From: Oscillospiraceae bacterium
GTDB lineage: Bacteria > Bacillota > Clostridia > Oscillospirales > Acutalibacteraceae
Length of the DNA: 64,000 bases
NCBI GenBank assembly: GCA_012520505.1
Contig: JAAYOC010000021.1
Coordinates: forward strand, 1-64,000
Reading direction: 5' to 3'
Under the pieces are notes generated by a model. It searched no databases, was not told where the DNA came from, and saw only the letters and a list, made by a program, of their open reading frames with translations. The translations under genes and the position numbers were made by a program. The stretch's first letter is position 1, and each line of letters begins with the position of its first letter. Shown here piece after piece: positions 28,701 through 62,722 of the stretch.

Positions 28701-28985
28701 AAAAAAGCTCGTCTCAAAGCATTTACTTTGAGACGAGCAACAAATCTAATTTGTACCCGCGGTACCACTCAAATTGCTAAATAAATTAGCCACTTCAAAC
28801 TCTAACAAGTTCTATGCACTTACGTAGCATGCACGAATGGGTTCTACTAAGTAAAACTTTTCTTCCCACCAGCTCGGGAGCTACAAACAAAAATTTCTTG
28901 TTATCGGTTTACACCATACACCGACTCTCTTAAAACAAGGGGAATTTTGTCCTCTCCGTCAAAGCTTTTGTATAAAATTGTATGT
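28701..28985 (-). promoter_or_regulatory. T-box riboswitch upstream of the XRE-cupin-ligase gene
   Basis: On the minus strand the leader has an AGAGAGTCGGTG Stem I element, the T-box sequence TGGTACCGCGG (plus coordinates ~28758-28768) and a terminator hairpin GCTCGTCTCAAAG / CTTTGAGACGAGC followed by TTTTTT (28701-28738), 56 bp before the ATG. Aligning its Stem I base (GTA-G-CTCC) with the Cys T-box in this window (TGC-G-CTCG) gives GTA (Val) as a candidate specifier. The specifier assignment is uncertain. Confidence 0.9.
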
Positions 28986-29388: not shown

Positions 29389-29462
29389 AGCGGAATAGTG
29401 TAACGGTAACACGACTGACTCTGACTCAGTTATTTGGGGTTCGAATCCCTATTCCGCTGCCA
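29389..29462 (+). tRNA. tRNA-Gln (anticodon CTG), CCA encoded
   Basis: Full cloverleaf: acceptor AGCGGAA / TTCCGCT, D arm GTGTAACGGTAACAC, anticodon stem ACTGA / TCAGT with loop CTCTGAC (anticodon CTG, reads CAG), T loop TTCGAAT, discriminator G, then encoded CCA. Confidence 0.96.
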
Positions 29463-32756: not shown

Positions 32757-33422
32757 ATGTTAAGCTTGATAAAAAAGATGATAGATTATATGGTTGAAGA
32801 TGTGTGCTGTGTAAAAGAGCGCGACCCTGCAGCAAGAGGAAACATTGAAATTCTTTTGCTGTATCCGGGGCTTCGTGCTATTTGGTACTATAGGGTTGCG
32901 CATTATCTTCATAATAAAAGGTGTTTCTTTTTAGCTCGTGCGCTCTCACAGCACGCTGCAAAAATAACCGGAATCGAAATACATCCGGGTGCAAAGATTG
33001 GTCGTCGTTTCTTTATCGACCACGGCCATGGCGTGGTAATAGGTGAAACGACTGAAATCGGTGACGATGTTACTATTTACCAGGGAGTAACTTTAGGTGG
33101 AACCGGTAAAGAAAAAGGAAAGCGTCACCCAACAATCGGCAACGGTGTAATGATAGGTTCCGGTGCAAAGGTCTTAGGACCTTTTAAGGTTGGTGACAAT
33201 TCAAACATTGCATCAGGTGCTGTGGTACTTGAGGAAATTCCACCGAATTCTACTGCTGTAGGTGTACCCGCGAGAGTGGTAGTTAGGGATGGAAAAAGGA
33301 TAGACAACCTTGATCAAATTAATGTACCGGACCCTGTAAAGAATGAAATAGATAAATTGAAAGAACAGATAGAAAAACTTGAAAAGGAAGTTAAAAAATC
33401 AAAGAAGGAGAAGAAGAAATGA
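32757..33422 (+). CDS. cysE: Serine O-acetyltransferase
   Basis: Acetylates L-serine with acetyl-CoA, the first step to cysteine. The left-handed hexapeptide repeat is clear (HPGAKIGRRFFIDHGHGVVI; EIGDDVTIYQGVTLGGTGKE, with the catalytic His in DHGHG). The 221-residue protein ends with a lysine-rich coiled coil (EIDKLKEQIEKLEKEVKKSK) beyond the catalytic domain. It is coupled to cysS by an ATGA overlap, and both sit behind a cysteine T-box, joining cysteine synthesis and charging. Confidence 0.96.
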   Translation: MLSLIKKMIDYMVEDVCCVKERDPAARGNIEILLLYPGLRAIWYYRVAHYLHNKRCFFLARALSQHAAKITGIEIHPGAKIGRRFFIDHGHGVVIGETTEIGDDVTIYQGVTLGGTGKEKGKRHPTIGNGVMIGSGAKVLGPFKVGDNSNIASGAVVLEEIPPNSTAVGVPARVVVRDGKRIDNLDQINVPDPVKNEIDKLKEQIEKLEKEVKKSKKEKKK

Positions 33423-34819
33423 GAGTCTTCAATACGTTGACAAGGAAAAAGGAAGAGCTTGAACCAATTGTTCCCGGAGAATATAAAATTTATGCTTGCG
33501 GACCTACAGTTTACAACTTAATTCATATTGGTAATGCACGTCCACTTTGTGTATTTGATGTACTTCGTCGTTATCTTGAATATAGAGGTAACAAGGTTAT
33601 ATTTGTTCAAAATTTTACCGATATTGACGATAAGATTATAAATCGCGCAAATGAAGAAGGTACAGATTACGAAACAATTGCAAAGAGATATATAGAAGAA
33701 TATTGGATAGATGCTAAGGGCTTAAATATTCGTGAAGCTGATTTTCATCCAAAGGCAACGGAAAACATGCCTGAAATTATCAACATCATTAGTACCCTTA
33801 TCGAAAAGGGACACGCATATGTTGTTGAAAATGGTGATGTTTATTTCGCAACAAAAACTTTCGAGAAATACGGCAAACTTTCACATCAACCGCTTGAAGA
33901 ACTTGAGGCCGGTGCCAGGATCAATGTCGGCGAACTTAAAAGAGAACCAATAGATTTTGCACTTTGGAAGTCCGCAAAACCGGGAGAGCCGTTTTGGGAT
34001 TCACCTTGGGGCAAGGGTAGACCGGGTTGGCATATTGAGTGTTCTGCAATGAATAGGGGTATCCATGGAAATACAATTGATATTCACTGTGGTGGTCAGG
34101 ATTTAATTTTCCCGCACCATGAGAATGAAATAGCTCAATCTGAATGTTGCAACGGTGTTCCTTTTGCTAATTATTGGATGCATAACGGGTATATAAATGT
34201 TGATAATGTGAAGATGTCTAAATCGCTCGGAAATTTTTTCACTGTCCGCGATGTAGCTGAAAAATATGGTTATGAGCCAATTCGTTATCTTATGATTTCT
34301 TCACACTATAGGAGTCCAATCAATTATAGTATAGATACCATTGAACAGTGTAAAGCAGCTCTTACTCGCCTTTACACTTGCAGGGATGGTCTTGATTTTG
34401 CTCTTGAAAATGCTGTTGTTGATACTCGTCCACAAGATTTTGAAATAAAGAAAACACTTGATATGCACAGAACAAAGTTCATTGAGGCGATGGATGATGA
34501 TTTAAATACAGCAGATGCGCTTGCTGCAGTTTATGATCTTGTTCGTGATATTAACACACATGTATTGTCAGGTGATGCATCTCAAAGTCTTATTGAATAT
34601 GCAATCGAGGAATTTGATGAGCTTACAGAAGTTTTGGGTCTTGTATATAACAGAAAAGAAGAGTCGCTTGATATTGATGTTGAACAACTTATTGCTGAAA
34701 GAAATATGGCACGACAGAATAAAGATTTTGCTCTCGCAGATAAAATCAGAGATGATTTAAAAGCTCAAGGAATCATTCTTGAAGATACACCACAGGGTGT
34801 AAAATGGCATAAAGTGTAG
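33419..34819 (+). CDS. cysS: Cysteinyl-tRNA synthetase
   Basis: Class I synthetase of 466 residues. HIGH-type motif as HIGNARP near residue 35, zinc ligands in YACGPTVYN and GWHIECSAM and the HHENEIAQSE segment, and KMSKSLGNF near residue 265. Overlaps cysE by four bases; under T-box control. Confidence 0.97.
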   Translation: MRVFNTLTRKKEELEPIVPGEYKIYACGPTVYNLIHIGNARPLCVFDVLRRYLEYRGNKVIFVQNFTDIDDKIINRANEEGTDYETIAKRYIEEYWIDAKGLNIREADFHPKATENMPEIINIISTLIEKGHAYVVENGDVYFATKTFEKYGKLSHQPLEELEAGARINVGELKREPIDFALWKSAKPGEPFWDSPWGKGRPGWHIECSAMNRGIHGNTIDIHCGGQDLIFPHHENEIAQSECCNGVPFANYWMHNGYINVDNVKMSKSLGNFFTVRDVAEKYGYEPIRYLMISSHYRSPINYSIDTIEQCKAALTRLYTCRDGLDFALENAVVDTRPQDFEIKKTLDMHRTKFIEAMDDDLNTADALAAVYDLVRDINTHVLSGDASQSLIEYAIEEFDELTEVLGLVYNRKEESLDIDVEQLIAERNMARQNKDFALADKIRDDLKAQGIILEDTPQGVKWHKV

Positions 34820-35034: not shown

Positions 35035-35063
35035 TTGACATTTTGCAAAGATTAGTGTATAGT
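35035..35063 (+). promoter_or_regulatory. Strong promoter of an orphan transcript
   Basis: TTGACA (35035-35040), 17-bp spacer, TATAGT (35058-35063), with no protein gene following for 700 bp. Confidence 0.75.
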
Positions 35064-35065
35064 GA

Positions 35066-35310
35066 GAACTGTAAGAGGGATAGTCCTTATAAAACGAAGA
35101 GGCGGAGAAGTTATACTTCTGTGGAATACTGCGGAAAAGGTAACTTCTCCACCCCACTCCCACTTGCAGGTTAATTAAAATCCTTTGTCGTTGTAAGTTT
35201 TTCATTTTACCCTCCAGTTTTTAGATAGTTTTTCATTTTATTCTCCTTTATTTGAATAATTATCTCCTCAAACTGAGATGCTCCAGTAAGTCCAACTGGA
35301 GCTTCTTGGT
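35066..35310 (+). ncRNA. Candidate structured small RNA, family unknown
   Basis: Downstream of the promoter the RNA can fold with an outer stem (AACTGTAAGAGGGA with TCCCACTTGCAGGTT, near 35067-35174). Inside it is a perfect 10-bp hairpin GGAGAAGTTA / TAACTTCTCC (near 35104-35150) with a 27-base loop. A T-rich 3' part carries several CCTCC/TCTCC motifs that could pair with Shine-Dalgarno sequences. It ends in a GCTCCAGT / ACTGGAGC hairpin. I tested it against memory of 6S RNA, SRP RNA, T-box and common riboswitches and found no match. Confidence 0.45.
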
Positions 35311-35316
35311 TTTTTA
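35280..35316 (+). terminator. Terminator of the orphan RNA
   Basis: GCTCCAGT / ACTGGAGC, loop AAGTCCA, then TTCTTGGTTTTTT. Confidence 0.75.
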
Positions 35317-35339: not shown

Positions 35340-35650
35340 AGCTAAAATTTGATAGGGAAGATTTGAAGAAGATCTGAAATATAAAAATGTCAAAAAATAT
35401 TTATATTTAGGATGTTAAGATATTAGAATATGTCTAAGCATTAGAATATGTTTAAGCATTAAAATGTGGAGTATGTTAAGGTATAGGGAATATTAAAATA
35501 CAGAGAATATTAAAATATAGAGGATTATTACTTCTAAGGAAATATTAAACATAAAGAAAAATTGAAAATAGCAAACGAGATAAACATATGAAAAAATGAG
35601 AAAAGCAGAGAAAAAGTGAGAAAACAAAATCTAAATTAAAAAACATTAAA
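35340..35650. repeat. AT-rich spacer with decayed short tandem repeats
   Basis: Includes ATTAGAATATGTCTAAGC followed by ATTAGAATATGTTTAAGC (18 bp), and GAATATTAAAATACAGA followed by GAATATTAAAATATAGA (17 bp). No gene is supported. Confidence 0.8.
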
Positions 35651-35657
35651 AAAATGG

Positions 35658-35686
35658 TTGACGACACTTGTTTTTGATGTTATCAT
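35658..35686 (+). promoter_or_regulatory. Promoter of rplM-rpsI
   Basis: TTGACG, 17-bp spacer, TATCAT. No clear L13 leader structure follows in the 73-bp UTR. Confidence 0.7.
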
Positions 35687-35759: not shown

Positions 35760-36188
35760 ATGTCAACTTATATGCCAAAAGCAGGCGATATTACTCGTGA
35801 CTGGTATGTTCTTGACGCGGAAGGTAGAACACTTGGTTCACTTGCAACTGAAGTTGCTACGCTTCTTCGTGGAAAGCACAAGCCAACATTCACACCTCAT
35901 GCTGATTGTGGCGATCATGTCATTGTAATTAATGCTGATAAGGTTGTTTTAACAGGTAAAAAGCTTGAACAAAAGAAATATTACCGTCATACAGGTTATG
36001 TTGGAAATCTTAAGGAAATTAAGTATAAGGAACTTATGAAAACAAAGCCTGATTTCGTTGTAATTAAAGCAGTTAAGGGTATGCTTCCACGCAATACGAT
36101 TGGAAGAAATTCTCTTACAAGGCTTCGTGTATATGCTGGTCCTGAGCATCCACATATTGCTCAAAATCCACAGCCACGTGAATTTTAA
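35760..36188 (+). CDS. rplM: 50S ribosomal protein L13
   Basis: 142-residue L13 with the standard DWYVLDAEGRTLGSLATEVA, NADKVVLTGKK, KGMLPRNTIGR and RLRVYAGPEHPH motifs. SD CGGAGG. Operon with rpsI, the universal pair. Confidence 0.97.
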   Translation: MSTYMPKAGDITRDWYVLDAEGRTLGSLATEVATLLRGKHKPTFTPHADCGDHVIVINADKVVLTGKKLEQKKYYRHTGYVGNLKEIKYKELMKTKPDFVVIKAVKGMLPRNTIGRNSLTRLRVYAGPEHPHIAQNPQPREF

Positions 36189-61540: not shown

Positions 61541-62722
61541 ATGAAATTTACGACAAATTATCCATTCGTTTTAGTTCACGGAATGCTCGGATATGGTAAG
61601 GATGAAATGGTGAATAAAATGATTCCTTATTGGGGAATGCTTTCAGGAAATCTTATGCCATATTTAAAAAATTTGGGATTTGAAGTTTATAATCCGTCAA
61701 TAGGTAAATATTCGAGTAACTGGGATAGAGCGTGTGAACTTTGGGCACAACTAGTGGGTGGCACTGTAGACTATGGTGTTGCTCATTCAAAAAAATATGG
61801 ACATAAGAGATTTGGACGCACATACAAAAAACCTCTTTTTGAGGGCTTTGGTCCGGATAAGAAAATAAATTTAGTAGGTCATTCACTCGGTGGCCCAACA
61901 ATTCGTCTACTTGCAACACTTATGGCAGATGGCTCAAAAGAAGAACAAGAGGCAACTCCGGAAGATGAATTGTCAGATCTTTTCAAAGGTGGAAAAGAAG
62001 ATTGGATTTTTTCAATTTCTGCAGTTGCAAGTGTACAAGAAGGTACAACACTTGCTTATTCTATGCAAAAGACTATTCATTTTCTTGAACTTTTCACATA
62101 CTTCTTTGCTAATATTACCGGTAACAACCCATTAGGTATGTTATATGAGAGTCATATGGAGCAGTGGGGTCTCATTGAATGGGAAGACGGTAAAATTAAA
62201 TCTAAATCGCTCGATGTAGAAAAATGGAAAAAAATTCAAGATAGTCGTGATAATGTATGGAGCGAGATTACTTTGAAAGGTGCTAAAGAAGTGAATAAAC
62301 AGATTAGATGTCTTAAAAATGTTTATTATTTCTCATGGCCTTGTTGTAAGAGTTCTCAAATGTTTTTTATGAACAAGCCGCGTCATACACCACGTTTTAT
62401 AATGTCTCCGTTATTTTGGGGATTTTCACATTCAATTGGTAAATACTCAGAAAATAAAGTGGATGATTATCCAATTGACGAGCGTTGGCTTCCAAACGAT
62501 GGACTTGTTCCAACAATCGCTCAATTGGCACCATCTGGAGAACCATATGTTTACATGCGTGACCTTAAAGGTGAGCCGAAAAAAGGTATTTGGAATATTT
62601 ATGATGTAGTATCTTGTGACCATTTAGGTATTGTCGGCGGTTTATTGCTTCCAACTTCTGCAAGTAAACTACAACCAATATATCTTGACCGTTTTGGTTT
62701 GATTAATAAACTTAAAAAATAA
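61541..62722 (+). CDS. Lipase 2, family I.5-like, without signal peptide
   Basis: A 393-residue paralogue of lipase 1. NYPFVLVHGMLGYGKDEM opens the fold; NWDRACELWAQLVGGTVDYG and AHSKKYGHKRFGRTY give the zinc site. VGHSLGG holds the Ser, NDGLVPTIAQL the Asp and CDHLGIVGG the His. No signal peptide is present: the homology begins nine residues after the ATG at 61541, which follows GGAGG. A ~25-residue insert near residue 215 (EWEDGKIKSKSLDVEKWK) distinguishes it from lipase 1. Substrate lipids are unknown. Confidence 0.9.
   Translation: MKFTTNYPFVLVHGMLGYGKDEMVNKMIPYWGMLSGNLMPYLKNLGFEVYNPSIGKYSSNWDRACELWAQLVGGTVDYGVAHSKKYGHKRFGRTYKKPLFEGFGPDKKINLVGHSLGGPTIRLLATLMADGSKEEQEATPEDELSDLFKGGKEDWIFSISAVASVQEGTTLAYSMQKTIHFLELFTYFFANITGNNPLGMLYESHMEQWGLIEWEDGKIKSKSLDVEKWKKIQDSRDNVWSEITLKGAKEVNKQIRCLKNVYYFSWPCCKSSQMFFMNKPRHTPRFIMSPLFWGFSHSIGKYSENKVDDYPIDERWLPNDGLVPTIAQLAPSGEPYVYMRDLKGEPKKGIWNIYDVVSCDHLGIVGGLLLPTSASKLQPIYLDRFGLINKLKK

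Follow-up and report, generated by a model that had tools for sequence, protein, structure and literature searches.

The window analysed here is a 64,000-nt stretch of contig C14 from the 1.69-Mb metagenome-assembled genome (G000) of an uncultured gut bacterium, whose related public records come from Candidatus Limimonas, a member of the Acutalibacteraceae, and from other Clostridia/Oscillospiraceae. Between the housekeeping genes cysS (33419-34819) and rplM (35760-36188) lies a predicted plus-strand small RNA gene of about 245 nt, here called RNA-A (35066-35316). Its promoter (35035-35063) consists of TTGACA (35035-35040), a 17-nt spacer and TATAGT (35058-35063), matches the consensus at 11 of 12 positions and is the best of 7 promoter-like sites in the region (5.5 expected from shuffles). 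By sequence it is a near-perfect sigma-A type promoter, and the -10 box would place the transcription start near 35070. The RNA is predicted to end at an intrinsic terminator (35273-35316), with a stem-loop at 35280-35302, the loop AAGUCC and a U-rich tract; it is the sole terminator detected in the region, where 0.3 were expected, and ends about 440 nt before rplM. No conserved plus-strand open reading frame (ORF) was found in RNA-A. Promoter, terminator and the lack of a good plus-strand ORF agree with an initial annotation of this DNA, which had also failed to match the RNA to 6S, SRP, T-box or any riboswitch. A scan with the Rfam 15 covariance models bore this out, giving RNA-A no family at the gathering score and nothing plausible at E values up to 10. 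The only Rfam matches in the window are a T-box leader (28726-28971, minus strand) and a nearby tRNA gene (29389-29459, plus strand).

The window copy has a predicted folding energy of -75.5 kcal/mol, compared with -51.1 kcal/mol for dinucleotide shuffles (z = -5.07, 0 of 200 shuffles). The predicted fold contains an inner hairpin (35104-35150) with a perfect 10-bp stem (35104-35113 with 35141-35150), and an outer stem joining 35066-35079 to about 35210-35220. Hairpins of different sequence occupy the inner position in three related genomes (G007, G008 and G016), and the outer stem and the 10-bp hairpin are absent from most relatives. The description of the locus as a structured RNA holds for the window copy.

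Conservation and orientation of the RNA-A unit

The unit is present in seven other species of the genus (eight in total), so the initial annotation, which had made its reading depend on conservation in close relatives, passes on this point. Alignment shows that the -35 and -10 hexamers are common to all eight species, as are a core of about 46 nt and the terminator, whose stem is preserved through changed pairs and whose loop reads AGUCC in 7 of the 8. The region from promoter to core varies in length and sequence. Because the RNA of G001 and G003, about 108 nt long, consists only of a short leader, the core and the terminator, we take the core to be the part that cannot be reduced further, and assign the outer stem and the 10-bp hairpin to a 5′ extension.

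The unit has the opposite orientation to cysS and rplM in G007 and G008, which indicates that RNA-A is a free-standing transcription unit and not an rplM leader. G016 has a related unit on the opposite strand, at a distance of about 1.2 kb from rplM. T-box, riboswitch and ribosomal protein leaders stand 5′ of the gene they control and on the same strand, an arrangement broken by the two inversions. That RNA-A acts as a leader or attenuator of rplM-rpsI, in autoregulation by ribosomal protein L13, is accordingly refuted for the inverted species. It is extremely improbable in general: RNA-A does precede rplM in the window, as it does in several relatives, but its own terminator precedes that gene, the G016 unit is displaced to the opposite strand, and rplM has a conserved promoter of its own. 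Of the two origins offered by the initial annotation, a leader whose gene has been lost finds no support, since in no species is the unit followed by coding sequence, its terminator is preserved, and its orientation can reverse. The other, a trans-acting small RNA (sRNA), is supported by a unit with its own promoter and terminator, kept in eight species and inverted in two, whose only strictly conserved part is complementary to ribosome-binding sites (anti-RBS). As predicted from sequence, its own promoter, its intrinsic terminator and the absence of a conserved ORF are features of a trans-acting base-pairing sRNA, and so is a conserved, unpaired stretch with complementarity to the initiation regions of mRNAs.

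Repeats occur in the flanking DNA. In G007, six 20-bp repeats of GGGGACGGTTCTCGACAATC directly follow the RNA-A terminator (L003:1602-1719). The window holds short AT-rich tandem repeats at 35422-35518, between RNA-A and the rplM promoter (ATTAGAATATGTCTAAGC twice, and TAAAATACAGAGAATATTAAAATAT-like units). GAGAAA hexamers recur exactly every 10 bp upstream of rplM (window 35598-35663; -162, -152 and -142 from the rplM start) and are followed by AAATTAAAAA, which in the majority of loci possessing it lies exactly 25 nt before a TTGAC -35 box. The GAGAAA/AAATTAAAAA element is found upstream of rplM in relatives (L042-L071) from many genera of the family, and the array resembles a promoter-upstream DNA element in phase with the helix.

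The anti-RBS core and its candidate targets

The conserved core (35227-35272, plus strand) contains CAT (35234-35236), TCTCC (35242-35246) and TCTCCTC (35263-35269). Upstream of it lies an extra anti-RBS unit (35196-35226) with CAT (35203-35205) and CCCTCC (35210-35215), which is an imperfect direct repeat (77%) of 35227-35257 and was not seen in the alignment of relatives; its CCCTCCAGTT pairs with the RNA-A 5′ end in the predicted outer stem. All three pyrimidine motifs listed in the initial annotation are present. It had missed the CAT that stands before the first CUCC motif and again before the second, in each case at the usual Shine-Dalgarno (SD)-to-AUG distance, so that each of the two units is complementary to an SD, a spacer and AUG AAA AAC. 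The complement of the core has a double SD with AUG AAA AAC and has the form of a consensus ribosome-binding site with its start codon at normal spacing (GAGGAGAUAAUUAUUCAAAAUAAAGGAGAUAUUAAAAUGAAAAAC; UUGAGGAGAUAAUUAUUCAAAAUAAAGGAGAUAUUAAAAUGAAAAAC).

A 32-nt stretch, AUCUCCUUUAUUUUGAAUAAUUAUCUCCUCAA, is letter-for-letter identical in seven congeneric species of Candidatus Limimonas; in the window copy it is slightly changed and its first half is partly duplicated upstream. Among the same species pairs, leaving aside two near-identical pairs, rplM is 76-86% identical overall and 49-70% identical at third codon positions. The first CUCC is predicted to be unpaired with a probability of 0.75-1.0 in seven members. 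Judged by these comparisons, the U-rich part, and not the fold stressed in the initial annotation, is what evolution keeps. When 84,980 species, as well as viral contigs, were scanned with a degenerate pattern, the core proved to be confined to Limimonas. Core matches at L032, L034, L039 and L041 were rejected as chance matches missing the context, and those in G011, G046, G052 and G058 are ordinary ribosome-binding sites of genes on the other strand.

The complement of the core looks like a classical initiation region, and at the first unit in the window a minus-strand ORF of 66 aa begins, as would suit an orphan initiation region (SD and AUG) of a short or lost minus-strand gene. This reading is very unlikely, as the peptides after the AUG are entirely different among species and stop early (MKNY*, MKKLPN*, MKKTFHLVV*), and the conserved promoter and terminator sit on the plus strand.

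Complements of 10 nt of the core were found in 46 of 653 initiation regions of G000 versus 9 of 614 coding windows, and in 83 of 1,262 versus 14 of 1,166 in G007. They are five to six times as frequent in initiation regions as in coding windows, and roughly double the level of shuffled cores, which average 29 (G000) and 35 (G007) initiation-region matches. Among 100 shuffles of the G000 core, 8 reach the 10-nt count and 1 reaches the 11-nt count; part of the enrichment is common to all C/U-rich sequences.

No single long target is conserved across species, so that RNA-A more probably acts through a seed on several mRNAs than as an antisense RNA to one. Genus-wide searches with 32-, 23- and 22-nt patterns (up to 3 mismatches) found essentially only RNA-A itself with the second half of the core, and scattered gene starts with the first half. 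Ranking of all G000/G007 ortholog pairs with RNAduplex gave no standout target for RNA-A or for the partner RNA described below (RNA-B). Binding lipoproteins recur among the best start-site complements (MetQ-like, TupA-like, amino-acid and OppA-like). An exact 23-nt core match precedes an amino-acid-binding protein gene in G008, a match with one mismatch precedes a MetQ-like gene in G004, and MetQ-like orthologs in G000, G009 and G002 keep AAAGGAGA(U/G)A...AUG. A TupA-like gene is among the closest start-site complements in both G007 and G008. Any preference for lipoproteins is weak: the upstream-only test gives P = 0.026 and 0.012, and relative to other MKK genes there is none in G007. It is a lead only, because binding lipoproteins are common among MKK starts anyway; the targets are only candidates. 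A tblastn search with one query in parts of two genomes, a weak test, found no Hfq.

RNA-B and its complementarity to RNA-A

A reverse match to the 5′ part of RNA-A was found elsewhere in G000, outside the window and unlinked to RNA-A (contig C1, about 62255-62390, minus strand). This locus, RNA-B, has a predicted TTGACA-17-TATAAT promoter and a strong terminator, which would delimit a short transcript containing UAUCUUCUUUGCCCCUUCGUUUUAUAAGG. The anti-B motif of RNA-A, TCCTTATAAAACGAAG (35084-35099, plus strand), is fully complementary to G000 RNA-B over 16 nt, and weaker pairing extends to about 35114. Within a 60-genome set of relatives and 250 genomes of the family, RNA-B was found in five genomes (G000, G007, G016, G172 and G032) representing three genera. 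RNA-B loci also have no match in Rfam 15.

Pairing of 16-24 nt occurs in four genomes of three genera. Gapless exact pairing covers 16 nt in G000, 22 nt in G007 and 19 nt in G032, where shuffled RNA-B gives at most 11, 11 and 10 nt, respectively; in G016, 24 nt pair with G-U included, compared with 19 nt for shuffles. The exact-run lengths are far above those of shuffles. The motif reads CCTTATAAAACGAAG in G000 versus CCCTTTATAAAACGAAG in G007, and RNA-B differs in step. In five genomes (G001, G002, G003, G005 and G009) RNA-A lacks the motif; RNA-B is absent from these same genomes, including its syntenic site where that is readable. G008 has the motif, and neither RNA-B nor its neighbour gene was found in this assembly, which is 77% complete. 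The two separately encoded RNAs thus have conserved mutual complementarity, as a sponge pair would, and comparative sequence supports their pairing. The G016 RNA-A-like unit (L098:1506-1740) is longer, carries CUCC in several hairpin loops (for example, UUCUCCC within GUGAAGC-UUCUCCC-GCUUCAC) and shares a UUGAUAUCUUCU stretch with RNA-B.

Which of the two RNAs acts on the other may be read either way. RNA-B could be the main regulator and RNA-A mainly its sponge, with the anti-RBS core a second, separate activity added in Limimonas; we consider this possible but doubtful. The cysS-rplM spacer of G032 holds a short unit of about 88 nt with the anti-B motif and a terminator, little else and no anti-RBS core. 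Position and motif are what tie it to RNA-A; it indicates that the two functions are separable and favours RNA-A as a sponge. In addition, UAUCUUCUUUGCCCC is kept in all five RNA-B copies, while G007 RNA-A pairs only with the part neighbouring it; UAUCUUCUUUGCCCC there is unexplained by RNA-A pairing, which suggests further RNA-B targets. RNA-B is also syntenic in G000 and G007 and, on the DUF362 side, in G016. Against this, initiation regions show no enrichment of complements to the conserved segment of RNA-B, a result that speaks for RNA-B as the antagonist, and the motif-less RNA-A persists in the five species that lack RNA-B, so RNA-A does not need it.

The G000 and G007 copies of RNA-B (L074 and L075) could encode 14- to 15-aa peptides ending in RYLLCPFVL (MYYLNRYLLCPFVL and MFIKLYRYLLCPFVL, respectively), and such a frame is not present in the other three copies. 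The peptides would fit a type I toxin-antitoxin pair in which RNA-B codes for a tiny hydrophobic toxin and RNA-A is the antisense antitoxin. We hold this to be highly unlikely: three of the five copies (G016, G172 and G032) have no such frame with a start, the peptide is therefore not conserved, the frames have no clear SD, the shared C terminus follows from the conserved RNA-B segment, and RNA-A persists without RNA-B.

Proposed mechanism and comparison with known systems

Comparison among the genomes shows three conserved features: an independent unit, an anti-RBS core predicted to be unpaired, and a complementary partner found together with its docking site. RNA-A is, in our judgment, probably a trans-acting, start-site-blocking noncoding sRNA paired with the antisense or sponge RNA-B. 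It would be transcribed from its own promoter and end at its own terminator. The most likely targets of the single-stranded core are the translation initiation regions of several mRNAs, to which it would base-pair and so block translation. These mRNAs probably have AAAGGAGAUA...AUGAAAAA starts; those for the substrate-binding lipoproteins of ABC transporters are an example. In G000 and some relatives, the 5′ extension is complementary to RNA-B, which, if transcribed from its locus elsewhere, is expected to form a duplex with RNA-A; one RNA would then titrate or destabilize the other. A broader reading is more tentative: RNA-A may be a general start-site mimic over SD and AUG AAA AAC that represses exported-lipoprotein genes as a class, with RNA-B an antagonist gained or lost with the docking site. 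If true, this would make the pair an sRNA-antisRNA module of the Oscillospirales.

The Acutalibacteraceae are a family of abundant gut bacteria. A narrow literature search found no description of small RNA regulation in this family, and no small RNA circuit was found described for the Oscillospirales. The RNA-A gene is kept almost unchanged where the neighbouring noncoding DNA is scrambled, and the presence of RNA-B follows that of its docking site; the series of presence and absence across species is a natural test of an sRNA gaining or losing an RNA antagonist. From its sequence, RNA-A would be a new small RNA family with an RNA partner, of a kind already known, and the two RNAs together suggest a previously undescribed translation switch.

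In its putative working, the pair is most like RoxS with its sponge RosA, and in its candidate targets most like GcvB. In enteric bacteria, one seed region of GcvB is considered to cover the ribosome-binding sites of many mRNAs for periplasmic or lipoprotein substrate-binding proteins and so to repress them, and GcvB is countered by the sponge SroC. The likeness lies in a single seed and, as predictions for RNA-A, in substrate-binding protein targets and a second RNA that counters the first. GcvB differs in its G/U-rich seed and its use of Hfq, and SroC in its origin from an mRNA. GcvB and oppA are treated in PMC9988348. In Clostridioides difficile, SpoX and SpoY, which have Hfq ligation data behind them, act on initiation regions by pairing, and each may be a sponge for the other (PMC10267692). 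RNA-A and RNA-B resemble them as Clostridia sRNAs with predicted initiation-region pairing and possible mutual sponging, and differ in sequences and genes (PMC10267692).

RoxS (RsaE) of Bacillus subtilis has C-rich single-stranded regions complementary to SD sequences, and RosA is a free-standing sponge sRNA with a region complementary to RoxS; both have sigma-A promoters and intrinsic terminators (PMC8216469). RNA-A and RNA-B have the same predicted arrangement, an anti-SD sRNA and a separate complementary sRNA, each with a sigma-A promoter and an intrinsic terminator (PMC8216469). A covariance-model search with the RoxS/RsaE Rfam family found no sequence homology to RNA-A. The RNA-A core, unlike RoxS, also covers the start codon and AAA AAC. 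RNA-A would pair with RNA-B through a separate 5′ extension and not through its anti-RBS core, which differs from RoxS/RosA, and its host belongs to a different phylum branch (Clostridia, Acutalibacteraceae).
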